From: Acidobacteriota bacterium
GTDB taxonomy: Bacteria > Acidobacteriota > Terriglobia > Terriglobales > Acidobacteriaceae
DNA: 64,000 nucleotides
Reading direction: 5' to 3'
Assembly (NCBI GenBank): GCA_013289765.1
Contig: JABCZI010000007.1
Coordinates: 124,001-188,000 of the forward strand
Each line of letters starts with the position of its first letter. Position 1 is the first letter of the stretch. Both the position numbers and the translations under genes were made by a program. The notes under the pieces were generated by a model, which made no database searches, was not told the DNA's origin, and was given only the letters and a program-made list of their open reading frames with translations. Positions 12,970 to 32,396 of this stretch are shown here, piece after piece.

Positions 12970-15900
12970 TTATGCCTTTTCGAGTTTGACCAGAAAGCCC
13001 TTGGATTCAGGTGTATGCGCGTTCGGATCGGTCACCGCGGGGGTGAGAAGATTCGCCGGTGTCCGGGCATCTTTCCCCTCGTCCTCTATGATTCCGCGGA
13101 AGCCCTGGTGAATCGGCAGCCCGATCGGATACACCTTCTTGCCATCGATCATGAGTGGCTTCAGCCGGCGGGTCACGAAGGCTTTAGCGATGTAGGTTCC
13201 ACGGGCGCTAATTACTTTGACCTTGTCCGTTCCCTTGATTCCTTTGTCCTGCGCCAGTTCCACCGGGATCTCGACGAACGGCTCGGGTATGAGCTGGACG
13301 TTCATCGCGTTGTTTTTTGTCCAGTAGTGATAGTGTTCCGTCAGCCGATACGTCGTGCACACGATGTTGTATTCCGCCGGATCGCCGAACTTGTCGTATG
13401 GTGTCTTGAATTTCTTTACCAGCGGATTGTTCGACTGGTCCGGGTGGAGCAGGTTCTTGGTAGGACTTTCGATCGGTTCATAGTGCTCCGGGAATGGGCC
13501 GTCCACCAATACTCCCATCGGAGCAAACAGTCGACCCACGCCCTCCGGATTCATGATGAACGGTCCCATGTGATCCTTGGGGTGGGAGTCGGGCTTGAAG
13601 TCCGGCACATCATTGCCGGCCCAGGTTTGCGCCGCTTCGTTCCACCACACCTGCTTGCGCTCCGGATCCCACGGTTTTCCATCCGGGTCGCACGAAGCAC
13701 GGTTGTAAAGGACGCGCCGGTTGGCAGGCCATGACCATGCCCAATTGGGATAGATGCCCAGCCCGGACGGATCTTCGGTGCCGCGGCGCGCCAATTGATT
13801 TCCGGCCTCGGTCCAGCATCCCGAATAAATCCAGTTCCCGCAGGCGGTTGTGCCGTCGTCTTTGAGCCATGCAAACCCCGGAAGCTGCTGGCCGGCCCTG
13901 ATCACCTGCCCCGTTTTTTCGTCCTTCAACTCTGCCAGCGCCTTGCCATTTAGCTCCATCGCCAGTTGAGATAGTGGCGGATGAGATGCGTCGGCATATG
14001 GCCAGGTCAAGTTCAGAATGGGATCAGGGAATTTCCCGCCCTCTTTTTTGTAGAGGCCGCGAACCCGCAGAAAGATCTGCGCGACGATGTCCTGGTCCAG
14101 TCGGGCATCGCCCGGAGACGGCACAGCAGCAAATTTCCACGTTACCCAGCGCGCCGAGTTCGTCATGCTTCCGTCTTTTTCGGCGAAGCCGGCACAGGGC
14201 AGCCGGTACACTGTAGTCTTGATATTCTTCTGCTCGTCGGCAGTGATTCCCGGAGCGCGCCAGAACTCGCTGGTTTCGTCCGGATAAATCTCACCGACGA
14301 CCAACCAATCGGCCTTTTTCAGTGCATTGATGTTCTTGTTCGTGTCCGGGCCGACCATCACGCCGTTCATACCGAACGCCATCATGCCCTTGACCGTGCC
14401 GTTGTACATGTCGTCCCAGATATGGGTCCACGAGTAGTCGCGGTCGACCTTGGGCAGGTAATCGAAGGCGAACCCGTTTTCTTTCGTCGCCGCCGGACCG
14501 TACATGGCCTTGAGAAACGACACCATGAACTTTGGCGTGTTCGAGTAATAATTGAATGAATCCCACACAGACGGCTTCGAGGCGGTTGGCGTGGTGCGCT
14601 TTAGAAATGCGGCGAGGTCTGCGTCGGCTGGAATCGGCGCTTTCAGGTATCCGGGCAGGCTGTCGAACAAGCCAGCCATATCGGTCGCGCCCTGAATGTT
14701 CGAATGGCCGCGCAGCGCATTGACGCCTCCGCCCGCTCTTCCCACGTTGCCAAGCAGAAGCTGAATCATGGCCGCAGTGCGGATGATCTGCGTCCCGAAC
14801 GTGTGCTGGGTCCAACCGACGGCATAGATGATGGTCGCGACTTTCTTCATGTCGCCATCTTTGCGCACAGATGTGAACATGTCGATGGCTTTGAGATATT
14901 GATCTTTGGGAATGCCTGTAATTCGCTCGACGAGCTCCGGCGTGTAGCGCGAATACTGCTGCTTCAGCAGTTGGAAGACGCAGCGCGGGTGCTGCAAGGT
15001 CAGGTCGTAGGCCGCATTCGGCGGCAGTCCTGCTGGCGCCGAAGACGCCGACTGTGCGGAATTCGCTTTACCGCTGAGGTCGCCGCCCTGTTCGTAATTC
15101 CAGGTTGATGTGTTGTACGAGCCTGTCGCGGCATCGAAGCCGGAGTACAGACCGTCCTCCGGAAGTTTGAAGCCTTCCTTCACGACGAACGCGGCGTTCG
15201 TGTAGTTAACCAGGTAATCCTTCGCGATGCGGTTGTTTTCGATCGCGTACCGGATCAGCCCACCGAGGAAAGCGATGTCGGTGCCCGCGCGGATCTGGCA
15301 AAAGAGATCTGCGGTGGACGAGGTGCGGGTGAATCGGGGATCGACGGAAATCAGCTTGGCGTTGCGGGTGCGCTTGGCCTCCATCGCCCACTTGAATCCG
15401 CAGGGATGGTTCTCAGCAGGATTCCCACCCATGATCAACATCATGTCGGTGTTTTTGATGTCGATCCAGCCATTGGTCATGGCCCCGCGTCCAAATGTTG
15501 GTCCCAAACTTGAGACCGTGGGGCCGTGTCAAACACGGGCTTGGTTTTCTAAATAAACCAAGCCCAGACTCCTCATGGTCTTCACCACCAGATAATTGAA
15601 CTCATTCGTATCCGTGCAGCCGCCAATGAATGAAATTCCTTCGCACCGGTTCGCGGTGCGGCCGTTCGCGTCCTTCTCCACGAAGGTATCGTCGCGTGTC
15701 TTCTTGGTCCAGCGTGCAATCTCATCCAGAGCGTTATCCCAGGAGATGTCTTCCCACTCGGTCGCGCCGGGGCGGCGCACCTGCGGCTTCAACAGCCGCC
15801 GCGGGTTCATGATGTCTTGCTCGAGCGATGCCCCTTTGGGGCACAGCGTCCCGCGATTGGTGGGATGATCGGGATCGCCCTCGACGTGAATCACCTGCGG

Positions 15901-16110
15901 CGTGACGTTCTTGGCCTTGTCCCCGATCGTGTAGATCAGCGCACCGCAGCCGACCGCGCAATATGGGCAGGTCGATCGCGTCTCAGTGGCGCGCGCAATT
16001 TTCAGTTCCTTTAATTGTGCTACCGCGGGAGTCAGATCAAATCCCAGCAGAGAGAAGCCCGCTCCACCGACAAGCGCGCCTCTGAGGAAGTTTCTTCGGG
16101 AGAGTTCCAT
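12970..16110 (-). CDS. fdnG: Formate dehydrogenase alpha subunit, selenocysteine-containing (UGA read through)
   Basis: Two collinear frames on this strand meet at an in-frame TGA at 15529-15531. Upstream ends NQARV and downstream resumes HGPTVSSLGPTFGRGAMTN, which is the classic selenocysteine site of FdnG/FdoG (ARV-U-HGPTV). Reading TGA as Sec194 gives one 1046-residue protein. A bacterial SECIS hairpin starts 11 nt after the UGA (15500-15517). Residues 1-30 are a Tat signal (SRRNFLRGALVGGAGFSLLG). An N-terminal [4Fe-4S] motif CPYCAVGCGALIY is at about residue 48, followed by CPKG near 90. It binds bis-MGD cofactor and oxidises formate to CO2 in the periplasm. A naive gene caller would split it into 15529-16110 and 12970-15507. 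Confidence 0.96.
15500..15517 (-). promoter_or_regulatory. Bacterial SECIS element for formate dehydrogenase Sec194
   Basis: Read on the minus strand, GGTCTCAAGTTTGGGACC folds into a 6-bp stem (one G-U pair) with a hexaloop containing GU. The stem begins 11 nt after the UGA. Stem position and a GU in the apical loop are the features SelB recognises. Confidence 0.8.
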
Positions 16111-16219
16111 TGCGCATCCTCCGAGTACTCGATCACACGGCCAGACTGCAACGCAATTTTGAAAAACTATAATCGCCGAGGCGGCATACAGTCAAACCGA
16201 GAACCGCTTTCTTCGTCGG

Positions 16220-17128
16220 ATGAAACTCGGGGGCCCTCGGTTGCACAAATTCGAGTTGAAGGCCGATAATCGCCCGGTGGCGAACACCTCTTGGCAGCAG
16301 CGCATCTGGCGCGCAGAACAACTGGCCGCCAAGCATCCCTTTGCCGGGGAGATTCTGGGTTTCTACATCCATGTAGCTCGCTTTCAAGAAACTCTCTACC
16401 ATCAGCTCGACCGCTCCAATCACGGCGCAGCAAAAAGTAGCGCCGCGGAGTTCCGTAGCGCCGGCGTCCCGCGGGCTGTCGAGTCGGCGTCTCGCCGACT
16501 CCCCCTCCAGCAAGAAGATGTAATCACAAATGCGCTCTTAGTTCACTTCCCGAAATTCCTCTCACTCGTAGAAGCAAACGCCCCCGCCCCCCTCGCGCAG
16601 GTCGCGCACGATCTATGCGTATCTAACCCCAACTCATGGCCCAACCTCTTCTCCGAATGCTGGACCCACACCGATCCGTCCACCGATCCCGAAGAATTCC
16701 TGGTCCTAGCCTTCCTCCAGCCCTACGCCGAACTCGCCCGCGTTTCGCTGCCAGTCGAGAACTCCGCCTCCCGGCTATGTCCTTTTTGCAGCCGCAAACC
16801 TGCGCTCGCCATCCTTCGCCAGCAAGGCGACGGTGGCCGCCGAAGCCTGCTCTGTGGCTTCTGTCTCACTGAATGGGAGTTCCGCCGCATTGTCTGTCCC
16901 GGCTGCGGCCAGGAAGATCATGCCAAGCTTCCCGTGTATACCGCTGAGAGCTTTCCTTATATTCGGGTCGAATGTTGCGACACCTGCCAGACCTATATCA
17001 AGTCCATCGACTTGACCAAGAATGGCTTGGCCGAGCCGATGGTGGATGAGCTCGCCTCAATCCCCCTCGATCTCTGGGCGCAGGAGCGGGGATACTCAAA
17101 ACTGCGTCCCAACCTGTTGGGAATGTGA
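16220..17128 (+). CDS. fdhE: Formate dehydrogenase accessory protein FdhE
   Basis: This 302-residue protein matches FdhE. The N-terminal helical region contains WQQRIWRAEQLAAKHP near residue 25, and the C-terminal half carries four CxxC pairs: CPFC near residue 188, CGFC near 214, CPGC near 228 and CDTC near 255. These form the rubredoxin-like iron site. The ending DLWAQERGYSKLRPNLLGM is typical of the family. FdhE supports maturation of the Tat-exported formate dehydrogenase, probably by helping sulfuration or assembly of the alpha subunit. It is divergent from the fdh operon, with 109 bp between the two starts serving as a shared promoter region. The residues before WQQRI could be non-coding if a later start (for example GTG 16277) is used. 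Confidence 0.93.
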   Translation: MKLGGPRLHKFELKADNRPVANTSWQQRIWRAEQLAAKHPFAGEILGFYIHVARFQETLYHQLDRSNHGAAKSSAAEFRSAGVPRAVESASRRLPLQQEDVITNALLVHFPKFLSLVEANAPAPLAQVAHDLCVSNPNSWPNLFSECWTHTDPSTDPEEFLVLAFLQPYAELARVSLPVENSASRLCPFCSRKPALAILRQQGDGGRRSLLCGFCLTEWEFRRIVCPGCGQEDHAKLPVYTAESFPYIRVECCDTCQTYIKSIDLTKNGLAEPMVDELASIPLDLWAQERGYSKLRPNLLGM

Positions 17129-27784: not shown

Positions 27785-29125
27785 ATGCAGCGAGGTCTCG
27801 AATTGACGCCGTCGATTAGAGTTCACTCTACAGCCCAGCGTTTGACGCCGTTCCTCTTAGCAGTTTTTTCCATGCTTCCCGTAACCGCGGCCGGGCAGAG
27901 CAGCGTGGCAACCTCCGGATCGTGGTCTGGCATGGTTGTCTCCAGCGCTTGCAACGCAGATGAAGCCTTCAACGAATCTCCCGAATGCGTCAAGAATCTA
28001 CCCGGCGCGAAGCTCGCGCTCTACGACGATACGAACCGCGTGATCTATGCGCTGGAACCGCAGAAAGCCATCTCCGCCCATCTCGGCGATACCGTAACCG
28101 TGCGCGGAACGCTTGATGGCGAAACGATTCAGGCTGCATCCATCCAGCCGATGTCGATTGGCCTTGCGGTCGGCGAGAAAGCTCCCGCGTTCTCAATTCG
28201 CGACCAGTTCGGTCGAGCGCAAAGCCTTGACAGTTTGAAAGGACGAAGTGGCACCATACTTCTCTTCTTCCGTTCCGCCGACTGGTGACCGTTTTGCAAA
28301 GGGCAGCTGGTCCAGCTGCAAAGCGCCACTCAGCGATTCGAAAAGCAAGGCGTCAAACTGGCGGCTATCAGTTACGACTCGGAAGAGATCCTCAAGTTTT
28401 TTTCCGACCGTCATAAGGTCGATTATCCGCTGCTCGGAGATCCGGACTCGAAGATCATCAAGGCCTACGGTGTTCTCAACGTCGAAGCTACCGGCATGCA
28501 GAAAGGTTTCGCGCGCCCAGGATATTTCTTCATCGACCCGAACGGAGTTATTCGAGAGAAGTTCTTCGAGGCGAAATATCGCGAGCGGCTCACTGGAAAC
28601 AGTGTGATCTCTAAGCTCTTCCCGGAATTAGGCGAGGAAGTAACGGAGACGATTCAGGCCCCGCATTTGCAACTGGCTCTTGAGCAATCCGATTCCACTG
28701 CTGTCCCGGGCACGCGCGTGACCCTGGCCGCCGAGGTGAAACTGCCTCCGGATGTGCACGTGTATGCGCCCGGTGCGCAAGGTTACAAGCCGATCCGCCT
28801 GCTGATGGATGCGACACCAGAGATGCAGTTTCTCGCAGCCGCTTATCCCGACTCGAAGACGTTGTTTCTACCGGTAATCAACGAACGCGTGCCGGTGTTT
28901 GATGGGACTTTCCGCATCACTCAGGAAGTGAAGGTGAGTTCCGGCGCGGAGTTCTGGGGATCGCTAGGCAAAGACGGCAAAAACTTCACCATTGCCGGCA
29001 AGCTCGAGTACCAGGCTTGTGACCAGACCACCTGCTACATGCCGACATCAGTTCCGGTCAAATGGCAGTTACACGTCGATCCTTTGGATCGGACACGAGC
29101 GCCCGCGGAAGTCCGGCATAAATAG
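27785..29125 (+). CDS. Selenoprotein: exported redoxin with Sec-x-x-Cys active site fused to a DsbD-alpha-like domain
   Basis: Two collinear frames (27785-28288 and onward to 29125) are separated only by an in-frame TGA at 28286-28288. Protein before it ends LLFFRSADW and after it resumes PFCKGQLVQLQ, so UGA replaces the first Cys of the usual ADW-C-P-x-C-K site of AhpC/redoxin proteins. Read as Sec168 the product has 446 residues. A SECIS-like hairpin with a GGUC apical loop follows at 28303-28319. Order: signal peptide (to about 38), small OB-like domain with two Cys (45-120), redoxin domain (128-285, U168/C171), then a DsbD N-terminal-like domain (300-440) with a Cys pair at 412/417 (YQACDQTTCYMP). 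An envelope thiol/selenol reductase or peroxidase role is inferred. Confidence 0.85.
28303..28319 (+). promoter_or_regulatory. Bacterial SECIS element for the redoxin Sec168
   Basis: GCAGCTGGTCCAGCTGC forms a perfect 6-bp stem with a GGTCC pentaloop, starting 14 nt after the UGA. The loop GGUC resembles that of the E. coli fdhF SECIS. Flanking TTTTGCA and TGCAAA could extend or compete with the stem. Confidence 0.7.
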
Positions 29126-29134
29126 CACGAGGCT

Positions 29135-29740
29135 TTAACGCGAAGGACACGGCGCGCCCGCAGCCTGCCATACCTTCACCTTCGCCGAAAACTCATCATG
29201 CGGTATGGGCACCGGCGTTCGCCCTGGGCCTGGATTCCAGCCCCACGCCACCAATTTATCCTCGGTGAGGTGTTCGACCAGTTGATCGAGGTTCCGGCCT
29301 TGATTTTGCTTTGGGTCTTTGAGTGACTGGCAAAGTTGCGCGTCGGTTAGACCTTCCCAGATCATCGGCATACTCGGAGACGGCAAGTGCCACGCTGGCG
29401 CCCCAGGCGGCAGATGAACGTTCCCCAAGTTGTGGTCCTGGTGGCAGGTGCTGCATTTTGCCGCGGTTACTCCGAACCCGGCAGGGCCGCGCCTGATGTC
29501 CATGGTGTGCCGATGGCTATCGTCTCCCTGCCGCGGATAATCTCCCTTCGAATGGCAGTTCATGCAGCGCGGGTGTCGTAGCACCGGAACGAAAGCCGTG
29601 AAGAGTGCGCCGTCGTTGCTGTCGCTGGCGGCGCGCGGCGTGTTCGGCGGCTCCGCCGCAGCCACGGGACGCGAAAGCCACAGTGCTCCCGCGCAGACCG
29701 CTAAGATCAAAACGGCGACGAAAAATTCCACGCGCTTCAT
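29135..29740 (-). CDS. Diheme c-type cytochrome, partner of the isoquinoline-type oxidoreductase
   Basis: ATG 29740 has GGAGG upstream and overlaps the stop of the molybdoenzyme gene as ATGA; a longer open frame upstream lies within that gene. The 201-residue protein has a signal peptide (FFVAVLILAVCAGALWL) and two heme sites: CMNCH near residue 60 and CSTCH near 96. Histidines in HTMDIRRG and CHQDHN may be distal ligands. It should accept electrons from the IorAB-type enzyme in the periplasm. It is the last gene of a three-gene operon and convergent with the selenoprotein gene. Confidence 0.88.
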   Translation of the reverse strand: MKRVEFFVAVLILAVCAGALWLSRPVAAAEPPNTPRAASDSNDGALFTAFVPVLRHPRCMNCHSKGDYPRQGDDSHRHTMDIRRGPAGFGVTAAKCSTCHQDHNLGNVHLPPGAPAWHLPSPSMPMIWEGLTDAQLCQSLKDPKQNQGRNLDQLVEHLTEDKLVAWGWNPGPGRTPVPIPHDEFSAKVKVWQAAGAPCPSR

Positions 29741-31929
29741 ACAGCCTCCGTCATCCGAATCGGCAACCGCCGGATTCGCTTTCCGGTCGCCGCAAATATC
29801 GCGTTTGCGATTGCCGGGGCGGCGCAAGGCACACCCGGTTCTCCGATGCCACCGGATTTCTCCTGGTTGTTCACAATGTGAGTCTCGATCTTCGGACACT
29901 CGTCCATTCGCATGACTGGGAAGGTATTGAAATTGGTTTGCTGCAAGCGTCCATTCTCGAAAGTGAGTTCCTGGAACAGCGCGGCCGATGCCCCGAAGAT
30001 TGCGCCTCCTTCGGTTTGCGCCGCGATAATTCCGGGATTCACATATTCGCCGCAATCGATGGCGCACACCATGCGGTGCACGCGCACCTGGCCGTCCGTA
30101 ACCGAGACTTCTGTTACATGCGCCGAGTAACTCCCAAACGCAAAATGCACGGCGATCCCGCGGCCCATTCCCTTAGGCAAAGGCTTATCCCATCCCGCCT
30201 TCTGCGCGGCGAGATCGAGCACTCCAAGATGCCGGGGCTGCTTTTGCAGCAGAGCGCGCCGAAATTGGTAAGGATCTTTCCCCGCCAGCGCGGCCAGTTC
30301 GTCCACAAAACATTCGACCGCGAAGGCAGTGTGCGAATGTCCGACGGAACGAAGCCACTGCACTGGGACGTTTACCTCAGCTTGGTGCGATTCCACCGTC
30401 ACGTTCGGAATCGCGTAAGGAAGGTCGTCCACGCCCTCCACTGAAGCGGGATCGTATTCCTTGCCCTTCATCATCATTGCTGCGAAGAGCGTCCCGGCCA
30501 TGATCGACTGCCCCACCAGTCGCGATCTCCAACTCACGGCGTTGCCGCTGGCGTCGACGCCACCCTCGATCGCATGCAGAAATGCTGGACGATACCACCC
30601 GCCGGCCATGTCATCTTCGCGTGTCCAAATCACTTTGACTGGAGTTCCGGCAGCTTTAGCGACGTGAACCGCTTCCACCACAAAATCAGATTGCGGATTG
30701 GCGCGTCGTCCGAAACCTCCGCCCAGAAAAGTGGTATGGAGCTGTACCTTCTCAGGCGGCAGACCGGCGATCTTCGCCGCATTCGCGCGATCGATAGTTT
30801 GGAACTGTGAGCCGGTCCACACCTCGCAGGAATCCGCGCGCAAATCCACCGTGCAGTTCAGCGGCTCCATCATCAAATGCGAGAGGTAGGGAACTTCGTA
30901 AACTGCCTCGATCTTCTTTGCCGCGCTCTCCAGCGCACCGTCGGCATCTCCATCTTTGCGCACGCTGGTCCCCGGCGTTTTCGCGCGTTCGCGAAACCCC
31001 TGCATCATCTTGCTGGTGTCGAAGTTCTGCATGCTGCCTTCGTCCCATTCAACGCGAAGAGCATCACGTGCCACCTTGGCTTGCCAAAACGTATCGGCGA
31101 TGACGGCAACGCCCGCCGGAATCGCAACAATCTTGCGCACGCCCGGCATCGAGCGTGCCTTCGCGTCGTCGAAGCTTTTCATCTTTGCGCCGAAGATTGG
31201 AGGTCGCGCGATCACGGCGGTAAGCATTCCCGGCAACTTCACATCGATGCCGAATTCCGCCTTGCCATTCAACTTTTCGGGAGTGTCAAGCCGCTTGATC
31301 GGTTTGCCAATAAGTTTGAACGTTTTTGGATCTTTCAACTGCACGTGTTCTGGGGGAGGCAGCTTTGCCGCTGCAGCCGCGAGATGTCCGTACGTGAGTT
31401 TTCGGTTTGATCCGTTCAGCACCGCGCCCGATTCTGTGCGGCAAGTGGAAGCGTCCACGTTCCACTGCTGCGCGGCTGCCGCGATCAGCATGGCGCGTGC
31501 CGCGGCGCCGGCCTGGCGGAATTGCTCCAATCCCGACCATACGCTTGAGCTTCCCCCAGTCATCTGCATGCCGAACGCGGGATGGTTGTACTTAGGATCG
31601 ACCGGAGCTGGCTCGAAGCCAACTTTAGTCCAATCAGCGTCGAGTTCTTCCGCGAGAAGCATCGGCAACGATGTATAAACGCCCTGGCCCATCTCCGAGT
31701 GATTGACGATGACGGTCACCCGCTCGTCGCTGCCGATGCGCACGAACGCGTTCGGCATAAAAGTGCTGCCGGACGACTCCGCCGCCATGGCGCTGACTCC
31801 AGGAAAACGAAAACCAATCAACAAGCCGCCGCTGGCCGCGACCGAAGCCTTTAGAAAATTGCGCCGCCCTGTATCAGCGATTATTTGGCTTGTGTTCATT
31901 GTTGGACGAGTCACGGTTCTGCGAATCAT
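29737..31929 (-). CDS. Isoquinoline 1-oxidoreductase-type molybdopterin subunit (IorB-like), Tat-exported
   Basis: This 730-residue protein begins with GGAGG six bases before ATG 31929 and overlaps the small-subunit stop as ATGA. A Tat signal ([14 protein letters not shown]) lies at about residues 22-35. The xanthine-oxidase-family molybdenum domain shows [19 protein letters not shown], the [15 protein letters not shown] motif, and the catalytic Glu in GGIGEPGVP near the C-terminus. Enzymes of this two-subunit, FAD-free type hydroxylate N-heterocycles or oxidise aldehydes and pass electrons to cytochromes, which fits the downstream diheme protein. The substrate is unknown. Confidence 0.9.
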
Positions 31930-32396
31930 CGTGCACCTCCTTTCGCAACCATTTCGGCAGCCCGGTGAATCGCTCTGCGAATTCGCGGATACGTTCCACA
32001 GCGGCAGATATTGCCGGTCATGGCCTCGTCAATGTCTTCATCCGTGGGCGCAGGTTTCTCGCGCAGCAGTACCGCCGCGCTCATTAGCTGTCCAGATTGG
32101 CAGTAGCCGCATTGCGGCACGTCTTCTTCCAGCCACGCACGTTGCAGCGGATGGCTTAGATCAGGCGATAGCCCCTCGATGGTTGTTATCGATTTGCCTT
32201 CCGCCCGCGACACCGGAGCGACACAGGAACGCACCGCCTCACCATTGATGTGCACCGTGCAGGCGCCACACTGCGCCATGCCGCATCCATACTTTGTTCC
32301 GGTAAGACTGAGCTGCTCGCGAATCACCCAGAGCAACGGTGTTGAAGGATCCACATCGAGATCGACGCGCTTGCCGTTTACGGAGAAGCCAATCAT
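31926..32396 (-). CDS. Isoquinoline 1-oxidoreductase-type [2Fe-2S] subunit (IorA-like)
   Basis: A 156-residue protein with two [2Fe-2S] centres. The plant-type ferredoxin motif is [18 protein letters not shown] with a further SC near residue 58. The second, helical, centre is QCGYCQSG plus [10 protein letters not shown] near residues 96 and 131. This is the standard small subunit of xanthine-oxidase-family enzymes that lack a flavin subunit. It relays electrons from the molybdenum centre of the next gene. It lacks its own signal peptide and is probably co-exported with the Tat-bearing large subunit. The 241 bp upstream separate it from the divergent cyclase-like gene. Confidence 0.93.

Follow-up and report, generated by a model that had tools for sequence, protein, structure and literature searches.

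The reading frame at 27785-29125 of the window (the whole stretch of 64,000 nucleotides that was analysed) is free of stop codons apart from one TGA at 28286-28288. The locus therefore raises the question whether this codon interrupts a damaged gene or is decoded as selenocysteine (Sec) and, in the second case, what the protein may do.

Reading frame, homologues and selection

The initial annotation placed the TGA at the first active-site Cys of a redoxin in a frame that continues beyond it, and this was confirmed by the U-P-F-C motif and by a Pfam AhpC-TSA match reaching past the codon. It also expected automatic annotation to report two fragments, and standard gene calling indeed split the ORF into 27785-28288 and 28496-29125. 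The features of the gene are given in Table 1. The N-termini of the homologues are similarly hydrophobic to the putative signal peptide of the window protein. A xanthine-dehydrogenase-family pair (MoCo-binding and 2Fe-2S subunits; window 29740-32396, minus strand) adjoins the gene on the opposite strand.

Table 1. Features of the Sec-encoding gene, in window coordinates
Feature	Position	Strand	Basis or remark
Selenoprotein gene, 446 aa with TGA as Sec	27785..29125	+	ORF; full-length homologues with the same TGA, e.g. L083-L090
In-frame TGA, selenocysteine 168, context RSADW-U-PFCK	28286..28288	+	
Probable Sec-type signal peptide, residues 1-37, RLTPFLLAVFSMLPVTAAGQ	27785..27895	+	sequence; low model confidence
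N-terminal beta domain, residues 42-122	27908..28150	+	clade-specific; DUF5818-like below cut-off; confident model
Redoxin domain (AhpC-TSA/Redoxin), residues 124-283	28154..28633	+	fold nearest AhpE
Cys171, second residue of UxxC	28295..28297	+	aligns with AhpE peroxidatic Cys45
Bacterial SECIS hairpin GCAGCU-GGUCC-AGCUGC	28303..28319	+	
DsbD-alpha (nDsbD) domain, residues 291-433	28655..29083	+	profile and predicted fold
Cys412 of the DsbD-alpha pair	29018..29020	+	invariant
Cys417 of the DsbD-alpha pair	29033..29035	+	invariant

Named genomes were scanned for homologues, which gave 80 loci from 267 relatives, 78 of them classifiable. Both of the residues that had been proposed for position 168 of the homologues occur there, codon 168 being TGA in 57 of the classified loci and TGC or TGT in 21. 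The homologues belong to Acidobacteriota, Gemmatimonadota and marine Gammaproteobacteria (Pseudohongiella, OM182). Of 396 genomes sampled evenly from the phylum, 51 contain the family, and an in-frame TGA, counted at whatever position it fell, was seen in 58 of the 66 matches listed. A tree calculated with the site masked needs six Sec/Cys changes, at least five of which are forced by well-supported branches, and the window protein falls within a clade of nine that all carry Sec (support 99/96).

These data bear on the simplest reading of the locus, namely that an ordinary Cys redoxin has lately suffered a nonsense mutation, or that the TGA is an error of sequencing or assembly, so that a pseudogene or two fragments remain. 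The two pieces from standard gene calling and a tRNA-Sec that was not found in this assembly would agree with it, but the same TGA stands at 57 independent loci from three phyla, and all homologues would need the same error. Moreover, purifying selection acts on both sides of the TGA and continues past it, being stronger downstream (pN/pS of 0.16-0.25, versus 0.25-0.38 upstream), and the hairpin described below goes with the TGA and is absent from the Cys members. The damaged-gene reading is thus refuted by conservation, and its remaining probability is vanishingly small.

Gene neighbourhoods were compared across the 78 loci and no conserved partner was found; therefore, the genomic context names no partner for the protein. 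The protein most closely related to that of the window is encoded on a contig labelled Formivibrio (Betaproteobacteria; L085, JARLJJ010000617.1) in an otherwise acidobacterial clade, and the MAG bin concerned is probably mixed or mislabelled. The relatives also carry a different redoxin family (L006, L008, L011, L013, L014 and L029), in which a TGA lies in the motif YRG-x-WUP[FY]C; these are candidate UxxC selenoproteins, some of them preceded by hydrophobic segments that probably lie in the membrane. Additionally, an AhpC-like protein (L018, G059) has a TGA in the motif FTGGU, which corresponds to Sec at the peroxidatic position.

SECIS hairpin and selenocysteine machinery

A perfect hairpin with a GGUC loop, reported to begin 14 nt past the TGA, was verified at 28303-28319. 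Its arms GCAGCT (28303-28308) and AGCTGC (28314-28319) enclose GGUCC, or alternatively form a 7-bp stem with the loop GUC, and the stem spans +17 to +33 counted from the T of the TGA. In a shuffle test the single-sequence fold of 66 nt around the TGA reached only z = -1.28, because alternative pairings and the repeated codons for QLVQLQ blur the signal, and a comparative test was therefore used in its place. Of 59 distinct TGA sequences, 51 have the 6-bp stem fully paired, compared with none of 20 Cys sequences, which bears out the expected conservation among TGA-bearing relatives. In a scan of 2700 placements within the gene this stem offset ranked first (87% of the TGA-bearing and 0% of the Cys homologues), and the best unrelated placement reached 27%. 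The stem pairs vary on both sides, the fourth from G-C to A-T and the first from G-C to C-G, and the loop of the TGA homologues is mostly GGUCC, GGUCG or CGUGG. Since the encoded peptide QLVQLQ or QLVELQ tends toward palindromes, synonymous recodings of it were used as a control: the stem was kept in 11% of the recodings for the TGA sequences and in 5% for the Cys sequences. With 86% observed in the TGA sequences, the hairpin as a mere by-product of this peptide was ruled out.

For the genome itself, a complete set of selA, selB, selC and selD had been named as a check, and this set was recovered in part. The genes selA, selB and selD are all present, and SelD is itself a selenoprotein with U in KAAGUASKL (G000 C2:298120-299046; L038, L043). 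The tRNA-Sec gene selC was not found in the assembly, a draft of 97.6% completeness, by RF01852 (in an RNA search that scored only part of its candidates), by ARAGORN near the sel genes, by BLAST with the tRNA of the genus or by two patterns, and the best RF01852 matches were tRNA-Ser. Among the relatives searched, tRNA-Sec exceeded the cut-off in 54 of 61 genomes, with clear matches at 60-80 bits, including relatives that have the same TGA gene (G015, G018, G051 and G060). The missing tRNA-Sec probably reflects an assembly gap rather than evidence against Sec. The window holds a second selenoprotein gene, the formate dehydrogenase alpha subunit (12970-16332, minus strand; TGA at 15529-15531). 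The earlier statement that the genome makes a Sec-containing formate dehydrogenase was upheld by the UHGP motif of this subunit at 15531-15521 on the minus strand, and the protein has a Tat-like leader.

The missing selC is also what would speak for a selenium-free decoding of the codon, in which the TGA is read through or a suppressor tRNA inserts Cys or Trp. This is highly improbable in view of selA, selB, a Sec-type selD and a canonical UHGP formate dehydrogenase in the same genome, of the four relatives that combine the TGA gene with tRNA-Sec, and of the dependence of the hairpin on the TGA. The conserved TGA, the SECIS hairpin and selA, selB and selD together make it almost certain, as judged from sequence, that the gene product is a selenoprotein, and the predicted Sec at residue 168 can be regarded as settled short of chemistry.

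Domain architecture and active site

The Pfam search returned AhpC-TSA at residues 129-258 (1.6e-30), the AhpC-TSA and Redoxin matches together spanning 129-265, and DsbD_N (PF11412) at residues 305-422 (1.8e-7; 31.7 bits, cut-off 25), as well as a match to DUF5818 at residues 87-122 below its cut-off. The protein had been described as having three domains, and an AlphaFold model (mean pLDDT 89.7) shows the redoxin domain flanked by a beta domain at either end. The N-terminal one, however, is confined to the Terriglobia/gp2 clade and lies outside the core of the family, DUF5818 being matched by 8 of 48 members, whereas the DsbD_N profile is matched by 44 of the 48. The proposed DsbD-alpha-like domain with a Cys pair 412/417 held up by profile and by predicted fold: when folded alone (pLDDT 91.7), its top 11 structure matches were all DsbD-alpha or ScsB (Z 10.4-11.4), and both Cys residues are invariant in the family, with a C-x4-C spacing and no conserved CxxC. 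The domain scan of the protein gave no membrane beta domain of DsbD; ccdA is encoded elsewhere in the genome. The window protein combines a PF00578 domain with UxxC, by which Prx-like selenoproteins are defined, and it scores below the cut-off of every NCBIfam model; the SelL-related redox protein model NF040769 scores 46.1 bits against a curated cut-off of 120.

The description of the middle domain as redoxin or AhpC-like stands with regard to the fold, the closest match of the predicted structure being AhpE (Z 20.1, rmsd 2.2 over 151 residues). The residues diagnostic of a peroxidase are missing, however, so the term is better taken to mean a thiol:disulfide oxidoreductase. When the two are aligned, U168 corresponds to AhpE T42, C171 to C45 and the invariant P245 to R116. 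Of the peroxiredoxin motif PxxxTxxC only the Cys is kept in SADWUPFC, the Thr position being held by Sec or Cys and the Pro position by Ser164, and the active-site Arg (AhpE R116) is replaced by Pro245. The motif W-U-P-x-C together with a Pro at the facing loop is the arrangement of thioredoxin-like reductases. Because the Thr, Arg and motif Pro of peroxidases are lost and these thioredoxin-like features are present, the function is more likely that of a thiol:disulfide (selenol) relay than that of a peroxidase.

The main rival is a selenium-dependent envelope peroxidase, in which Cys171 or Sec168 would reduce peroxides, a mixed Se-S bond would form and the fused DsbD-alpha domain would supply the electrons to reset it. 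In profile and fold searches the redoxin domain matches AhpE and PrxQ peroxiredoxins best, and Cys171 occupies the peroxidatic position; set against this are the three substitutions just described, with Sec itself in place of the Thr, and a W-U-P-[FY]-C plus Pro arrangement that belongs to thioredoxin-like reductases, so that the peroxidase is considered unlikely.

Proposed relay and comparison with known systems

For the favoured thiol:disulfide relay, the following sequence of steps is proposed. SelB at the downstream hairpin would have UGA 168 decoded as Sec in a presumably exported protein. The membrane protein CcdA would draw electrons from cytoplasmic thioredoxin and deliver them to the Sec168-Cys171 site. 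This selenol/thiol pair would reduce the Cys412-Cys417 disulfide in the alpha domain fused to it, in the way that the Trx-like gamma domain acts in DsbD, and the alpha domain would then reduce envelope targets, where both the targets and the direction of electron flow are what we infer. With Sec, the first step would be rapid and readily reversible. Reduction of ResA by CcdA is established in Bacillus subtilis (PMC9145763). The genome also contains a split DsbD operon (G000 C2; L164:141-2163, minus strand) consisting of ccdA, a ResA-like redoxin (WATWCGPC) and a stand-alone DsbD-alpha protein (YQACDNSACYPP), and the fusion corresponds to its last two domain types joined in unchanged order, redoxin and then DsbD_N. 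The idea that the fusion is the only DsbD-alpha of the genome was wrong, as this operon encodes a second. Against the relay, besides the gene neighbourhoods without a conserved partner, the redoxin and DsbD_N sequences encoded in the ccdA operon share only 28-29% identity with the fusion, and the solved structures nearest to the redoxin domain belong to peroxiredoxins and not to ResA. On balance, the analogy suggests a path from CcdA through Sec168/Cys171 and Cys412/417 to envelope targets, which we hold to be reasonably, though not strongly, probable. The wider proposal, that these proteins form an undescribed and widespread class of Sec-based envelope relays in Acidobacteriota, Gemmatimonadota and marine Gammaproteobacteria, each corresponding to the gamma-alpha half of DsbD as a single soluble chain that has Sec in its Trx-fold part and docks to a free CcdA, is put forward tentatively.

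The analysis adds a family of Sec proteins that annotation pipelines will probably break in two or label as pseudogenes, since no NCBIfam model accepts the window protein. A DsbD-alpha domain is here linked to a Sec active site, a combination shared by dozens of related bacteria. Several Sec/Cys switches, with the SECIS hairpin gained or lost in step, thus offer a natural experiment on the benefit of Sec in envelope thiol chemistry.

No match to a redoxin/DsbD-alpha selenoprotein fusion was found in the literature searched, and the fusion is absent from the catalogue of PMC13188914, going by its table entries. The single domains and the use of Sec are already known, and as far as was searched it is the redoxin/DsbD-alpha architecture that is undescribed. 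Prx-like UxxC/UxxU thiol:disulfide oxidoreductase selenoproteins (PF00578) and a 'Redoxin family protein' with UxxC (PF08534) were catalogued in 2026 (PMC13188914 Table 1); they share with the present family the AhpC-TSA/Redoxin domain, UxxC and the bacterial Sec system, but as described in that table they are given no DsbD-alpha partner, whereas in the present family a DsbD-alpha domain is conserved at the C-terminus and one clade has a further domain at the N-terminus. TsoB (NF045694), in the table of the same source a rhodanese/DsbD fusion-like selenoprotein, likewise has a DsbD-like part, but by that entry it carries a rhodanese with a UxxxxU motif instead of a redoxin. Unknown_3 from marine metagenomes, as described in PMC2398784, also joins a UxxC Prx-like domain to a Cys-containing domain, and marine gammaproteobacteria (Pseudohongiella, OM182) have the present family; by its description, however, Unknown_3 has three conserved Cys including a CxxC, in contrast to the C-x4-C pair without conserved CxxC found here. 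AhpE and PrxQ resemble the redoxin domain in fold (Z about 20 to AhpE) and in the position of Cys171, and differ in the TxxC Thr, the motif Pro and the catalytic Arg, all of which the window protein lacks. With DsbD (alpha, beta, gamma) and with the split arrangement of ccdA, redoxin and DsbD_N the protein shares a genuine DsbD-alpha domain, Cys pair included, beside a Trx-fold domain; unlike DsbD, it has no membrane beta domain, its Trx-fold domain is AhpE-like with Sec, and both domains lie in one predicted secreted chain.
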